Shown: positions 24,617-30,568, counted from the first letter of the stretch. The stretch is DNA of 40,888 bases from Candidatus Bathyarchaeota archaeon (GCA_018396635.1 JAGTQE010000012.1:1-40888), one strand, 5' to 3'. The notes: a model not told the origin generated them from the sequence alone. Numbers and translations: made by a program.

Positions 24617-26071
24617 TTATCTCTCTATCTTTCTGACAAGTCTCCTATGGCTATCGTATACTTCTATGGTTAGTGGCATTTGACCGACCGCGAAGTGCGT
24701 AGCGCATGCGAGACATGGATCGTATGCCCTAAAGACCATCTCCACCATATTAAGTAACCCCTCATCAATTTTTTCGCCATGTATCAGGCCTTTAGCGGCA
24801 TTACGTATTGAAATATTTATCGAGGGCGCATTATTTACCGTAGCGACTATAAGATTAACATCCTTAATTAGGGCGCTTTCATCCAATATGTAATGATGGA
24901 TTAGCGTACCCCTAGCCGCCTCAACTACCCCAATGCCCTCGCTTGGCTTGCCCGGCATATTACGAATATTCTTGCTAATTATCTCTGGATCCCTTGCAAG
25001 ATCAACCGCGCGCTCAGCTGCATAAAGCAGCTCTATGAGCCTGGCCCAGTGGTAAGCTAACGTTGAGTGTATTGGCCTTTCACCCAATGTCTTGTACATA
25101 AACCGATATTCCTCTTCAGCCAATGGGGTTGCCATTCCATTGGAGACGTTAAGTCTGGCTAGTGGTCCGACACGATAAATACCACTTTCAGGACCATCGA
25201 GGAAACCTTTCCATCCAACCCTCCTCAAATATGGGAATTTAACGTAAGTCCATTCCTCAACGTGCTCGGCTATATGGTTTAAGTAATCTTTTGCGTCAAA
25301 CTTCGCAAATTCATTACCATGTGGATCGACAACCCTTATCTTCCCATCATAAAAATTGACCTTATTTTCCTTGTCAACTAAACCCATATAGTAGGTGCGT
25401 AACGAGTAAACATCACTCTTGATCATGTCAATGTAGTTAGTGCTCTCTAACACTATTTTATGGAAGAGGTCTAGCGTGAACTTTGCAAATTCCACGGATG
25501 ATAAAGCCATTTTCTCGATTTCTCGCCTATTCTCCTCGCTTAATGGCTTAGACAGCCCGCCCGGCAATCCGCAGACTGGATGTGTTGCCTTTCCACCTAT
25601 AATCTCCACAATCCTCTGCCCATAGGCCCTATGCCTTATAATCTCCTTACCAATATCTAAGCCCAGCCTCTCAATCACGCCCAAAATATTTCGTTTTTCT
25701 GGGGGGGCTCTCGGACCCACTATGAAATCTGGCCCACCAAGATAATAAAAGTGTAATATGTGATCGTAAATTATGTAGCCGCAGTACATGAGCTCTCTGA
25801 GTTTCTTAGCCGGCTCAGGCGGCTCAACATTAAAGGCAGCGTCAAGGGCCTTCGTTCCAGCCGTATGATGCGCCACTGGACAAACTCCACATATCCTGCT
25901 CGTTATTACAGGCATGTCTTCAGCTTTCCTTCCAATGCAAAATCTCTCAAAACCACGTAGCTCTGGAACCTGCATATAGGCGTTTTCAACCTCACCTCTC
26001 TCGTCCAAAAATATCACTATTTTACCGTGGCCCTCAAGTCTAGTGATCGGGTTTATATCTATCCTCTTCAT
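24617..26071 (-). CDS. [NiFe] hydrogenase large subunit (group 3, MvhA-like)
   Basis: The catalytic subunit binding the NiFe site. The N-terminal L1 motif RICGVCPVAHHTAG gives Cys61 and Cys64; the C-terminal L2 motif DPCLACATH gives Cys453 and Cys456. Twenty-five residues follow His459, the expected tail removed by a maturation endopeptidase after metal insertion. The 484-residue length and the RLEGHGKIVIFLD, PELRGFERF and THPVCGLPGG segments point to the cytoplasmic F420-non-reducing (Mvh) or related group 3 enzymes. It overlaps the small subunit's stop by 4 bases. A maturation protease gene is divergent from the pair. The exact subgroup needs a tree. Confidence 0.92.
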   Translation of the reverse strand: MKRIDINPITRLEGHGKIVIFLDERGEVENAYMQVPELRGFERFCIGRKAEDMPVITSRICGVCPVAHHTAGTKALDAAFNVEPPEPAKKLRELMYCGYIIYDHILHFYYLGGPDFIVGPRAPPEKRNILGVIERLGLDIGKEIIRHRAYGQRIVEIIGGKATHPVCGLPGGLSKPLSEENRREIEKMALSSVEFAKFTLDLFHKIVLESTNYIDMIKSDVYSLRTYYMGLVDKENKVNFYDGKIRVVDPHGNEFAKFDAKDYLNHIAEHVEEWTYVKFPYLRRVGWKGFLDGPESGIYRVGPLARLNVSNGMATPLAEEEYRFMYKTLGERPIHSTLAYHWARLIELLYAAERAVDLARDPEIISKNIRNMPGKPSEGIGVVEAARGTLIHHYILDESALIKDVNLIVATVNNAPSINISIRNAAKGLIHGEKIDEGLLNMVEMVFRAYDPCLACATHFAVGQMPLTIEVYDSHRRLVRKIER

Positions 26072-27078
26072 TCGCGAACAAACCTCCTCTTAAGGGTTGA
26101 GGATGGCAGAACATACATGTAAAATGTTCCGGCCGGATCCGCTATACTATTTATGATTCTTCTGATCTCATTGAGAGATCTTTTCTCCTCAGCGCTAATT
26201 ATGGATGCTAAGGCGCTTAGCATGGCTGCGCCTTGGTCCGAGACGTTTGGACACGGCCCACCGCATCCCGTACATGGCATATCGACATTCAAGCATCTGG
26301 CCCCACAACCACCTCTGGTTGCCGGACCCATACATATTATGCCCTGCTCAAGCAGGCACTTTTCTGGGCTAGGGATCTTCTCGTAAACTCGGCATATATG
26401 AGAGATCTTTTTGTTCTCCTTTACTTTCGGACACTCATCACATACGGATTTTTGCGGGGCTAAAACGGAGCCTTTTGGAGGAAGCTCTCCCTTAAGTATC
26501 GCCTCAAGCGCAAATACTGTCCTTTCCACGGCTGGTGGGCATCCTGGAATATAGTAGTCTACCTCAACATTCTGATTAAGAGCTTTTACCTCATCATAGA
26601 GAACTGGAAGTTCTAGCTCGCCTTCTCTGACGTGGACTACGGGTTTGGGGATAATGTTCTCTGGGTTAACCGTAGAAGGGGTTTTAATATATATTTTTTC
26701 AAGAATCTCCCGTCCACTATAAAGGTTTGCAAGTCCAGGGATCCCTCCAAAGCAAGCGCAGGATCCATATGCGATCAATATTTTAGACTTCTCCCTTAAT
26801 AGCCTCGCCATACGATCCTGCTCGCTGTTACGTATGCCGCCATTAAAGAAGCATACATCTATATATTTATCAGGCATCTTTTCAACATCACCATACTTTA
26901 CGTCTATTGCCGCTGGCCAAAAGACGATGTCCGCGGTCTGCACTACTTCCAGAATTTTCTCATTTATGTCAAGCACTGCTATTTCACATCCGCCACAGCT
27001 CGCAGCCCAGTAGAAGGCTAATCTGAGTCTTCCTCCATCCAAGCAGCATCCCTTGAAAACTTTTACTCTACACTCCAA
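26068..27078 (-). CDS. [NiFe] hydrogenase small subunit (group 3, MvhG-like)
   Basis: The electron-transfer subunit with 4Fe-4S clusters. Proximal-cluster Cys lie in AASCGGCEIAVLD, YGSCACFGGIPG and YIPGCPP. A Cys-rich second half (CDECPKV, ICRVYEK, IICMGPATRGGCGARC, MPCTGCGGPC) would hold two more clusters. There is no Tat signal or membrane anchor, so it is cytoplasmic. At 336 residues it is somewhat longer than methanogen MvhG, with about 20 extra residues at the end. It is the first gene of the minus-strand pair. The true start could be slightly downstream of 27078, but the Cys motif needs most of the N terminus. Electrons likely pass to the MvhD-type protein encoded divergently. Confidence 0.9.
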   Translation of the reverse strand: MECRVKVFKGCCLDGGRLRLAFYWAASCGGCEIAVLDINEKILEVVQTADIVFWPAAIDVKYGDVEKMPDKYIDVCFFNGGIRNSEQDRMARLLREKSKILIAYGSCACFGGIPGLANLYSGREILEKIYIKTPSTVNPENIIPKPVVHVREGELELPVLYDEVKALNQNVEVDYYIPGCPPAVERTVFALEAILKGELPPKGSVLAPQKSVCDECPKVKENKKISHICRVYEKIPSPEKCLLEQGIICMGPATRGGCGARCLNVDMPCTGCGGPCPNVSDQGAAMLSALASIISAEEKRSLNEIRRIINSIADPAGTFYMYVLPSSTLKRRFVRE

Positions 27079-27151
27079 TTTAAAAGCTTTTGATAAATTG
27101 GATTTTCATAAGATAAAGCTAAAATTCCACTTCAAGTCATTTGTAGTCGAT

Positions 27152-27640
27152 ATGAGGGAGGCAGTCAAGAGAGAACTGGCGAAGTGGCTTTCTGGAGCGG
27201 AGAGGGTTGTCGTAGTAGGAATTGGAAACCCCATCCGCATGGATGATTATGTTGGCATCATTGTTATTCGAAGTCTTAATGAGAGAGTATCTGGGAGGGC
27301 TCTGCTACTTGAATGTGAAACTGTTCCAGAGAACTATATTCAGCAAATAGTAGAGTTTAAGCCAACACACATCCTTCTAATAGACGCCGCGATTCTAGGC
27401 TTAAGGCCCGGAGAAGTAGAGCTTCTGGAGCCTAAAAATATAGAGTTATCCTCAGCGTTCTCAACTCACGCCTTACCCTTAAAAGTCTTCTGCGAATATC
27501 TCTCTAGGACAACAAACGCGAAAATATTGCTTCTTTTAATACAGCCCAAGAAAACGGATTTTGGTGAGGGTTTAACTCCAGAAGTTCTCTCATCTGGAAT
27601 AGAAATTGCGGACTTTTTATCTAAAATCCTACCACGCTAA
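27152..27640 (+). CDS. Hydrogenase maturation protease (HycI/FrcD family)
   Basis: The endopeptidase that trims the large subunit's C-terminal tail once nickel is in place. It shows VVVVGIGNPIRMDDYVGIIV, with Asp for nickel sensing, ALLLECETVPENY, LLIDAAILGLRPGEVELL and STHALPLKVFCEYL, with the second metal ligand His. The frame is open from 27053, but that would overlap the small subunit start, and the family begins close to the glycine-rich strand, so I choose ATG 27152 (162 residues). It is divergent from its likely substrate and leads into the MvhD-MetV-MetF genes, linking the two halves of the locus. Confidence 0.88.
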   Translation: MREAVKRELAKWLSGAERVVVVGIGNPIRMDDYVGIIVIRSLNERVSGRALLLECETVPENYIQQIVEFKPTHILLIDAAILGLRPGEVELLEPKNIELSSAFSTHALPLKVFCEYLSRTTNAKILLLLIQPKKTDFGEGLTPEVLSSGIEIADFLSKILPR

Positions 27641-27768
27641 AGGGATAGTAGGGGGTTCTCTGAACGCTCGGATATTTAGAGGTAGAAAGAGATAAATTAT
27701 TTCAGGGCTTAGAAGAGAAGAATAGATAAAGTTAAGAAAGCGCCCTATAGTTTGTGGAGAGAATTTGG

Positions 27769-28941
27769 ATGTTGGCTGAGAACAGTGTAAGAATCCGCAA
27801 CGAATATTGCAGTAAATGTTTAATATGTTCCTCAATATGCCCTTTTGAGGCAATATCCATTGACAAGGAGACTGGAGAGATCCTCCTGAATATAGAGAAG
27901 TGCCAAGTTTGTGGAATATGTTTCAGCGCATGCCCCTCATCCTCAATCGACATAGCCTACTATAAAACCGACATCCTCTCCGAATATATTAGAAGGGCGC
28001 GAAAAGATAATTTAATCTTAGTATGTAGAGGGGCGGTAATAAGGCCTGAGTTGAGAGAGAGATTAGAGAAACAAGGCGTGCTCAACAATTTCATTCAGTG
28101 GTATGTGCCCTGCATTGGCCGTATACCACTAGAGCTTCTGCTTAGAGCTTTGGAAGGTGGCGTAAAAAGGATAGTTATAGTGCCATGTGAAGATAATAAG
28201 TGCCGATTTAAATTTGGAAGTAATGTAGGCTTATCCCGGCTACTATTATTACAAGAGCTGCTCAGCCAGATTGGATTAAATCATGGCGTGCTATCTTTTG
28301 CTAGGAGCTCTATAAGGGCATACATTAATAGGAATCGGTGCATAGGTTGCGGAAACTGCGCATATATATGTCCAAGCAACGCTGCAAGGCTTGTATCGCC
28401 GGGCGTAGCGGAAATTGATGGTGCTGCCTGTTCTGGCTGCGGCGCATGCACGGCTGTCTGCCCATCCCTCGCAATAAATTTAGAGAGTTTTGAGAATAAA
28501 GTGATTCTCGAGGAAATTTCTAGGCATCGCCAATTAATTAGCGATTTAAGGGCGAAGGGTCTGCCAGCCGTAGCCGTATTTTATTGTCATTGGGCAAGTT
28601 TCCCTGCTCTTGATGAATATGGAGCCTATGCCAAAGAGAACGTTGTATTCTTTGAGGTCCCATGCTCAAGCATAATTAACCCACTTTATATTCTCAGAGC
28701 CTTCTATGAAGGGTTTGACGGCGCCCTAGTGATGGCGTGTAGGAAGAGTGAGTGCAAGTTTGAGAGGGGGAATGAGTTGGCTGAGAGACAAGTGAACGCC
28801 ATTAAAAATCTCCTTAGGCAGGTTGGCTTAGAAGGTAGGCTTGAGATATGTTTCGTTTCCCCAAAATATTTAGGTGAGGCCGAGCATCAGATTAAACTAT
28901 TTATGGATAAAGTAGCAGCTATGGTTGGGGTGTCGAAATGA
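27769..28941 (+). CDS. Tandem ferredoxin-MvhD protein (two Fd-MvhD units)
   Basis: A redox relay built as a repeat. Residues 14-55 hold two 4Fe-4S motifs (Cys 14, 17, 20, 24 and 45, 48, 51, 55). Residues about 80-170 form an MvhD-like domain (Cys86, 115, 140, 145). Residues 191-231 hold two more clusters (191, 194, 197, 201; 221, 224, 227, 231), and residues 268-375 form a second, more typical MvhD domain (FYCHWASF, VPCSS, MACRKSEC). MvhD passes electrons from [NiFe] hydrogenase to heterodisulfide reductase-type partners; here the next genes are metV and metF. ATG 27769 is preferred because GGAGAGA lies 6 bases upstream; GTG 27754 is the alternative. It overlaps metV by 4 bases. Confidence 0.85.
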   Translation: MLAENSVRIRNEYCSKCLICSSICPFEAISIDKETGEILLNIEKCQVCGICFSACPSSSIDIAYYKTDILSEYIRRARKDNLILVCRGAVIRPELRERLEKQGVLNNFIQWYVPCIGRIPLELLLRALEGGVKRIVIVPCEDNKCRFKFGSNVGLSRLLLLQELLSQIGLNHGVLSFARSSIRAYINRNRCIGCGNCAYICPSNAARLVSPGVAEIDGAACSGCGACTAVCPSLAINLESFENKVILEEISRHRQLISDLRAKGLPAVAVFYCHWASFPALDEYGAYAKENVVFFEVPCSSIINPLYILRAFYEGFDGALVMACRKSECKFERGNELAERQVNAIKNLLRQVGLEGRLEICFVSPKYLGEAEHQIKLFMDKVAAMVGVSK

Positions 28942-29630
28942 TAGTTGTTAAAGGGAAGCCTCTTGATGAAATATTGAGTTTTCTCCTACCCTACAAGAAT
29001 GTGCTTATTGTTGGCTGTGATGGCTGTACGCAGCCGCCAAGGGGGCTGAGAGAGGCAATGACCTACGCTATGCTCGTTGAGATGGGAGCTAAGCTCAGAG
29101 GTAAAACAGATCTTAAATGTAGGGCCACAACGGTAGCTAAGCAATGTGACAACCATATTTGCTCAACAACATTAACGCCCCAATTAGAGGGCGTCGATGC
29201 CATCCTATCTCTCGCATGTGGCGTGGGAGTTCAAACTTTAGTAGAAGTCTTTCCAGAAGTCCCTGTTTATCCGGGTCAAAACACGACGTTCATCGGCTCA
29301 CAGGAAAGGGAGGGGAGCATGTTATATGAGAAGTGTAAGGCTTGTGGGGAATGTTTACTCGGAGAGACTGGCGGCATATGTCCAATAACTAACTGTCCGA
29401 AGGGTATATTAAATGGGCCATGCGGTGGCTGCGTCGATGGGAAGTGTGAGGTCCCCTTTGAGATAAGAGATGAGACTGGGAAGGTTGTGAAGACCGTCGC
29501 TAAGGACTGTGCTTGGTATCTAATATATCAAAGGTTAAAGAAGTTAAACAGGTTAGATTTGTTCAGGAAATATAGGCCTCCAAGGAATAGGGCTATTTCA
29601 AGTTCACCAAGACTTATGGAGGTTGTTTAG
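28938..29630 (+). CDS. metV: MetV, methylene-tetrahydrofolate reductase partner subunit
   Basis: The Fe-S subunit that accompanies MetF in acetogens (MTHFR C-terminal domain family). The first part has VLIVGCDGCTQPPRGLREAM and CDNHICSTTLTPQLEGVDAI. The end is a Cys cluster, KCKACGECLLGE, GGICPITNCPKGILNGPCGG and CVDGKCE, expected to bind Fe-S and/or zinc. The 230-residue length is normal. It brings electrons to MetF's FAD. It overlaps the tandem MvhD gene by 4 bases and is followed by metF after 2 bases, so the three products almost certainly form one complex. Confidence 0.92.
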   Translation: MIVVKGKPLDEILSFLLPYKNVLIVGCDGCTQPPRGLREAMTYAMLVEMGAKLRGKTDLKCRATTVAKQCDNHICSTTLTPQLEGVDAILSLACGVGVQTLVEVFPEVPVYPGQNTTFIGSQEREGSMLYEKCKACGECLLGETGGICPITNCPKGILNGPCGGCVDGKCEVPFEIRDETGKVVKTVAKDCAWYLIYQRLKKLNRLDLFRKYRPPRNRAISSSPRLMEVV

Positions 29631-29632
29631 GA

Positions 29633-30568
29633 ATGGTTCAGGCATTCTCAAACTTGATGAGAAATATATTGGACGGCAAATTCGTTTATACTGGAGAGCT
29701 GGAGCCACATAAGTCGATAGATTTATCTGAAGTTATTTCTTGGGCGAAAACTCTGAAGGAGACCGGGAGGATAGTTGCCGCAAACGTTACGGATAACCCG
29801 AAGAGTGTGGGATCTATAAGTAGTCTTGTTGCAAGCTACATAATTCAGAGGGAGACGGGACTAGAGATAATATATCAGCTTAGGTGCAGCGATAGGAATC
29901 GTTTAGCACTTGTTTCGGACCTATTGGGCGCAGCAGCCTTAGGCATAAGAAATGTTCTAGCACTGACTGGCGATCACCCCAGGCAAGGCGACATGCCAAC
30001 CGCCATGCCAGTATATGACCTAGACGGAACTCAGCTCGTAGACCTAATACATAGAATGGTTTATGAGGGGAAGGATATCAATGGAAATGAAATTCATGGA
30101 CCACGTCCGCAATTTAATATTGGGGCTGCGGCAAACCCAAACTTTAAGCCACTTGAAGTTGAGGTCCTAAAGATTGAGCGGAAGGCGGAAGTTGGAGCGG
30201 AATTCTTCCAGACACAAGTAGTTTTCGACGTTAATGTTGCGCTAGAATTCCTAGATGCCGTCAAGCACGTAAACGCCGCATTTCTAATAGGAATATTCCC
30301 ACCGAGGTCATATGGTCAGGCGGAGTATTTTGCTAAGTACGTTCCAGGGGTTCAGGTTCCGGCGGAGTTTCTAGATAACCTGAAGAAGATATCTGAAATA
30401 TCTGACAGGAAGGAGCGGAGGAAAAGAATCGATGAGTATAATATAGAGTATTTCTCAGAGTTCATAAGGGCTGTTAAAAAGAAGCCGTCCTGTAGGGGTA
30501 TTCATATAATGGCTGTGGGTTATCCTGAGGTTGTGGGTCCATTGATCGAGAGCGTTGAAGGCTCTTAG
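29633..30568 (+). CDS. metF: Methylenetetrahydrofolate (or H4MPT) reductase, MetF
   Basis: A flavoprotein TIM barrel that reduces a 5,10-methylene-pterin to the 5-methyl form. Family motifs are VYTGELEPHKSIDLSEVISW with the catalytic Glu, NVTDNPKSVGSISSLV, YQLRCSDRNRLALVSDLLGA, NVLALTGDHPRQGD and FNIGAAANPNFKP. The 311-residue length is right. Paired with MetV and an MvhD-type relay, it fits the methyl branch of a Wood-Ljungdahl pathway with H2 as electron source. Whether it uses tetrahydrofolate or tetrahydromethanopterin cannot be read from sequence; MetF has been proposed to replace Mer in ANME-1 archaea. No mer, acs or mtr gene is in the window. Confidence 0.92.
   Translation: MVQAFSNLMRNILDGKFVYTGELEPHKSIDLSEVISWAKTLKETGRIVAANVTDNPKSVGSISSLVASYIIQRETGLEIIYQLRCSDRNRLALVSDLLGAAALGIRNVLALTGDHPRQGDMPTAMPVYDLDGTQLVDLIHRMVYEGKDINGNEIHGPRPQFNIGAAANPNFKPLEVEVLKIERKAEVGAEFFQTQVVFDVNVALEFLDAVKHVNAAFLIGIFPPRSYGQAEYFAKYVPGVQVPAEFLDNLKKISEISDRKERRKRIDEYNIEYFSEFIRAVKKKPSCRGIHIMAVGYPEVVGPLIESVEGS

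Follow-up and report, generated by a model that had tools for sequence, protein, structure and literature searches.

Four classes of methylenetetrahydrofolate reductase have been described in acetogens, namely MetF, MetVF, RnfC2-MetVF and HdrCBA-MvhD-MetVF (PMC9430772), and the electron donor of the MetVF type is disputed, one group holding that it is not ferredoxin in vivo (PMC8760232). In the HdrCBA-MvhD-MetVF enzymes of Moorella thermoacetica and Sporomusa ovata a MetVF core receives electrons through MvhD, and in Sporomusa membranes H2 ultimately reduces methylene-tetrahydrofolate (methylene-THF) (PMC9430772). Among archaea, MetFV has been proposed as a substitute for Mer on tetrahydromethanopterin (H4MPT) in anaerobic methanotrophs of the ANME-1 group, with its electron partner left open, and in Syntrophoarchaeum, which also carries HdrA and MvhD; NADPH or Hdr were the partners proposed, and no hydrogenase partner was described (PMC9012536). 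A survey of hot-spring Bathyarchaeia found Mer to be missing and invoked an 'alternative and unknown complex' (PMC8407382). Here we describe a six-gene hydrogenase-MetFV locus on a 40,888-nucleotide stretch of DNA (the window) from a Candidatus Bathyarchaeota archaeon (GCA_018396635.1, JAGTQE010000012.1:1-40888), which makes up contig C4 of a genome of 1.45 Mb and 99% completeness (G000). G-, L-, C- and A-numbers denote genomes, loci, contigs of G000 and alignments, respectively.

The locus encodes the large and small subunits of a [NiFe] hydrogenase (HydL and HydS), a maturation protease, a tandem ferredoxin (Fd) and MvhD protein (Fd-MvhD-Fd-MvhD; FdMvhD), MetV and MetF. It is like the Moorella and Sporomusa enzymes in its MetVF core and MvhD-type electron input, and its proposed function is like the H2-dependent reduction in Sporomusa membranes, but it has a cytoplasmic-type hydrogenase, no hdrABC, a duplicated MvhD with ferredoxin in one protein and, probably, H4MPT as its pterin. 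With ANME-1 and Syntrophoarchaeum it shares an archaeal MetFV in the place of Mer. In the methanogen HdrABC-MvhAGD complex (5odc) an MvhAG-like hydrogenase likewise feeds an MvhD domain and then the C-terminal ferredoxin domain of HdrA, whereas at the locus the flavin adenine dinucleotide (FAD) domain of HdrA, HdrB and HdrC are not encoded and the acceptor would be MetFV rather than heterodisulfide and ferredoxin. Most likely, the locus encodes a variant form of the Hdr-type MetVF reductase known from Moorella and Sporomusa. No description of an archaeal hydrogenase-metVF cluster or of the tandem adaptor was found in the open-licence literature, where absence is not proof.

We propose, with a probability of about 0.55, that the locus specifies a non-bifurcating H2:methylene-H4MPT oxidoreductase that works without HdrA. 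After maturation by the neighbouring protease, HydSL would exchange electrons with H2; within HydS the electrons would cross three [4Fe-4S] clusters and then reach the six clusters of the flavin-free FdMvhD, then to the Fe-S clusters of MetV and the flavin mononucleotide of MetF, which would interconvert methylene-H4MPT and methyl-H4MPT. The complex would stand in for the F420-dependent Mer in the archaeal Wood-Ljungdahl pathway and could run in either direction, taking up H2 for the synthesis of acetyl-CoA or releasing it from methyl groups. Complex formation, the electron path, H4MPT as the pterin and the absence of bifurcation are what we infer. Since FdMvhD amounts to two HdrA2 C-termini without the FAD domain, simple two-electron transfer rather than bifurcation would be expected. 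The potentials of H2 (about -414 mV) and of the methylene/methyl-H4MPT couple (about -320 mV) differ by about 0.1 V, and with so small a gap loss of the flavin would cost little, the step would stay reversible and bifurcation would be unneeded. For methylene-THF (E0' -200 mV; PMC9430772) the gap from H2 is about 0.2 V.

The strongest argument for hydrogenase and MetFV working together is their repeated assembly. MetV was present in 39 of 121 genomes of the class, and 43 metV loci were examined. Hydrogenase-linked MetFs occupied three or more separate positions in the MetF tree (three changes), and the hydrogenases linked to MetFV belonged to separate clades of the hydrogenase tree. A single clade, and with it a single inherited hydrogenase-MetFV operon, was rejected (approximately unbiased test, p 1e-47). 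Because the MetFs are not one clade and the hydrogenases lie in different clades, the pairing arose repeatedly, at least three times independently. Of the 43 metV loci, 8 had HydL within 6 kb (1 expected, P 5e-6; counted by genus, 4 of 20, P 9e-4) and 11 had FdMvhD within 4 kb (0.2 expected), where the expectation is that of a simple random-placement model and the 43 loci are not fully independent. Such re-pairing suggests that H2 may drive the methyl-forming step directly, without a bifurcating flavin protein.

The gene orders varied among relatives. Two genomes (G001, G008) have metV-metF-hydS-hydL and no MvhD match anywhere in the genome. In G022 and G032 the order is FdMvhD-(MetV-MetF fusion)-HydS-HydL, the G010 contig ends within hydS, and ftr or carbon monoxide dehydrogenase/acetyl-CoA synthase (CODH/ACS) genes lie near these fusion loci. 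The natural MetV-MetF fusion is ~545 aa and is encoded between FdMvhD and hydS-hydL (L039:3607-5247, L052:1144-2775, L053:2693-4327); in the same genus metV and metF also occur as a second, unfused pair, with ftr, mtd and fwd genes close by. The adaptor and MetFV are found among genes of the methyl branch in G003 (fwd-mch-FdMvhD-metV-metF) and G147 (fwd/mch-FdMvhD-metV-metF-mtd). At L029 the order is HdrA-HdrA-MvhD-HydS-HydL-MetV-MetF, and at L023, L025 and L028 metV is partnered by HdrA-MvhD with HdrBC.

FdMvhD corresponds to the HdrA2 C-terminus taken twice: two stretches matched NCBIfam model NF040770, best over positions 568-771 (1.1e-52). The FAD-binding thioredoxin-reductase domain of HdrA2 was not found in its 395 aa, which are filled by Fd and FlpD domains only. 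All 24 Cys (16 ferredoxin Cys and four per MvhD domain) are invariant among seven MetFV-linked copies (A1), and the predicted sites are four [4Fe-4S] and two four-Cys MvhD sites ([2Fe-2S]), or six clusters in all. An AlphaFold model (AF2; pLDDT 85.5, pTM 0.82) gave as top Foldseek matches the MvhD chains of 5odc, 5odh, 8rvu and 7bkb.

HydSL is a group-3-type [NiFe] hydrogenase. Both Ni-binding active-site motifs were read intact from the HydL translation (L1 RICGVCPVAHH, L2 DPCLACATH), a C-terminal tail for protease processing extends beyond the His, and a HycI-family protease is encoded adjacent. HydS keeps ligands for three [4Fe-4S] clusters, and its C107, C180, C213, C216, C241, C249, C258, C262, C269 and C272 are invariant in alignment A5. 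As a candidate for the group 3c MvhAG type, HydL scored 430 bits against the VhuA equivalog, under the cut-off of 800. The closest solved large subunit by sequence belongs to the bifurcating [NiFe] hydrogenase HydABCSL, which has NuoF-like flavin subunits; no such subunits are encoded at the locus. The best solved matches were 7t2r_D (from HydABCSL, 7t2r; 407 bits) and MvhA 5odc_F (394 bits). No solved relative of the window MetV was found by phmmer.

G000 encodes Fwd, Ftr, Mch, Mtd and CODH/ACS, and has a cytoplasmic H4MPT Wood-Ljungdahl pathway. The genome holds a single MetF match. Mer was not found: the sole luciferase-family protein scored 56.8 bits against F420_mer, far under the cut-off of 348.7, and Mer was rejected as the missing reductase. 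With a single MetF and no Mer, MetFV is the only methylene-pterin reductase found in G000, and its pterin is most likely H4MPT. True Mer is encoded near metVF in G066 and G025; at L026, L029 and L070 true Mer genes lie a few kb from metV-metF, so that some genomes have both methylene-H4MPT reductases.

The six genes were found at the expected coordinates by translation and Pfam search (Table 1), and the divergent layout, the 4-base overlaps (hydL/hydS, with HydS ending at 26068, and FdMvhD gene/metV), the 2-base metV-metF gap and the gene identities are as the earlier note had described them. MetV and MetF are encoded as adjacent subunits, with PF12225 and PF02219 both above cut-off. Likely starts of HydS and the protease were placed slightly off the longest open reading frames (ORFs) by comparison with L020, a locus of a second species of the same genus (G105), where HydS is of equal length. 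L020 has an identical gene order, and its six products share 69-94% protein identity with those of the window (HydL 85%). The order is shared by 'Ca. Bathyarchaeota SKW196' (L015), whose contig stops short of the hydrogenase; the protease is 70% identical in both. Because the gene order recurs in L020 and L015, an assembly chimera was ruled out, and its presence in SKW196 and G105 marks the genome as Bathyarchaeia-like. As the note had also held, no hdrABC is present at the locus itself. Nor does any hdrA adjoin it in G000, G105 or SKW196; such a neighbour in close relatives would, by the note, have refuted its reading. Upstream of hydS, a block with a TATA-like element (CTCTACACTyCrATTTAAAAGCTTT) is kept between the window and L020 and is a putative promoter.

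Table 1. Features of the hydrogenase-MetFV locus (window coordinates)
Feature	Position	Strand	Evidence
HydL, [NiFe] hydrogenase large subunit, MvhA/HydL type, 484 aa	24617..26071	-	PF00374 3.6e-39
HydS, hydrogenase small subunit, MvhG type, ~324 aa from TTG 27042; longest ORF to 27078	26068..27042	-	PF01058; VhuG model 232 bits
Divergent intergenic region	27043..27151	.	window/L020 alignment
Hydrogenase maturation protease, HycI family, ~162 aa from ATG 27152	27152..27640	+	PF01750 9.1e-14
FdMvhD, tandem Fd-MvhD-Fd-MvhD adaptor, 395 aa	27754..28941	+	PF02662 x2 + Fer4
MetV, 230 aa, Fe-S/zinc subunit of MetVF-type reductase	28938..29630	+	PF12225 (DUF5981) 3.9e-26
MetF, 311 aa, methylene-pterin reductase	29633..30568	+	PF02219 1.9e-31

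Observations on gene content and on the company kept by HydSL and FdMvhD elsewhere weigh against a direct H2:methylene-H4MPT oxidoreductase. Although hdrABC is absent from the locus, G000 encodes HdrA2-MvhD and a polyferredoxin on C1 and HdrCB, only on C9, with other HdrB on C31 and C18. HydSL may serve such an HdrABC in trans, additionally or instead. In its strong form, with HydSL mainly serving a bifurcating HdrABC (the C1 and C9 products), FdMvhD-MetFV a separate, ferredoxin-fed enzyme and the neighbourhood a matter of regulation, we regard this as unlikely, though it is the best of the alternatives. In the majority of other families, window-type HydSL has HdrCB or HdrA-HdrCB for a neighbour; the G000 HdrB groups in one clade with the HdrBs of such hydrogenase loci, and a gene for a maturation protease lies alongside it; and mvh and hdr genes can function without being adjacent (PMC6085437). 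However, G056 and G108, of the same genus, retain an HdrA2 of 92-94% identity, and a PF00374 search there found no close relative of the window hydrogenase, which argues that HdrA2 is independent of HydSL. Within its genus HydSL left HdrCB and joined FdMvhD-metVF, and in other lineages hydrogenase and MetFV occur together away from any Hdr gene, in two cases without detectable MvhD.

The gene for the HdrA2-MvhD fusion and that of the 303-aa polyferredoxin (L010:9551-12891) are kept as a pair in all family f1 genomes examined, whatever their hydrogenases (L153-L155, L160). Besides HydSL, G000 has HoxEFUYH (C2), a membrane enzyme of group 4 (C30) and two HdrB-linked clusters of group 4-like type, one on C31 and one on C18. 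These two clusters (L012:7139-11221 and L059:1-1982) are paralogous; in each, HdrB and ferredoxin accompany the genes of a soluble group-4-like (NuoB/C/D-like) [NiFe] hydrogenase, and they resemble the HdrB-interacting hydrogenases Ehd/Ehe/Drh/Ehg (PMC9723716).

The earlier note had left the HdrA flavin as either missing or supplied from elsewhere; the adaptor does lack a flavin domain, but both HdrA2 and NfnAB (on C6) are encoded elsewhere in G000. Hydrogenase and MetFV could thus meet through FdMvhD while NfnAB or HdrA2 adds a bifurcating flavin in trans, coupling H2, methyl-H4MPT, NADP(H) and ferredoxin, which we hold to be less likely again. About 85 of 257 genomes of the class encode FdMvhD, and the majority of 20 extra FdMvhD loci read were FdMvhD-NfnA-NfnB, the commonest arrangement; FdMvhD as a MetFV-specific protein was rejected. 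Family f11 has HydS-HydL-protease-FdMvhD-NfnA, with a HydL 68% identical to that of the window, and in G056 and G108 NfnA-NfnB stands beside a different metF-metV at the equivalent chromosomal site, after a TatD gene. Against this, the FdMvhD tree separates MetFV-linked from NfnAB-linked copies (support 100/99), the window copy being of the MetFV kind, no nfn genes were found beside any MetFV-linked FdMvhD, and the H4MPT step has little spare energy. Divergent transcription of HydSL from metVF, and several bathyarchaeal metVF pairs with no hydrogenase nearby, would suit a fortuitous neighbourhood of functionally unrelated enzymes, but the arrangement is kept in at least two species, was rebuilt in other lineages and exceeds the random-placement expectation, which makes this very improbable. 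For the direct oxidoreductase, then, the feeding of MetFV by H2 through a double MvhD that the note had suggested is favoured by the repeated linkage and by synteny, and is set back by the usual partners of HydSL (HdrCB) and FdMvhD (NfnAB).

Because loci combine it variously with hydrogenase, NfnAB and MetFV, FdMvhD is an exchangeable adaptor. Identity between the MetFV- and NfnAB-linked groups drops further across the second Fd/MvhD half than across the first, and few positions are group-specific, a weak hint about where partners may dock. FdMvhD-NfnA-NfnB operons (L111, L114-L116, L118-L123, L125-L128) occur in many families, are widespread in Bathyarchaeia and apparently represent a form of NfnAB not described before, which has the six-cluster tandem MvhD protein as a subunit; some adjoin HydSL and HdrA (L126).

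The locus and its relatives give a concrete candidate for the MetVF donor, namely H2 through a flavin-free wire; MetFV of ANME-1 poses an equivalent question (PMC9012536). At roughly even odds, they would make up an additional class of methylene-pterin reductases, in which a hydrogenase drives a MetFV complex on H4MPT without HdrA, through a duplicated HdrA C-terminus that has lost its flavin; the wire would be a plug-in adaptor for hydrogenase, NfnAB and MetFV in Bathyarchaeia, and simpler lineages would dock hydrogenase straight onto MetFV. G236 has FdMvhD-NfnA-NfnB at the post-TatD site, and the swapping of Hyd/FdMvhD/MetFV, NfnAB/MetFV and FdMvhD/NfnAB at a single chromosomal site within the genus serves as a natural experiment in how redox modules are wired. 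Elsewhere, a 709-aa protein, possibly a fusion, matches NfnB over ~420 residues and HdrA-MvhD over ~210 (L071:4138-6267); its gene is divergent from metV-metF and lies beside CODH/ACS genes.

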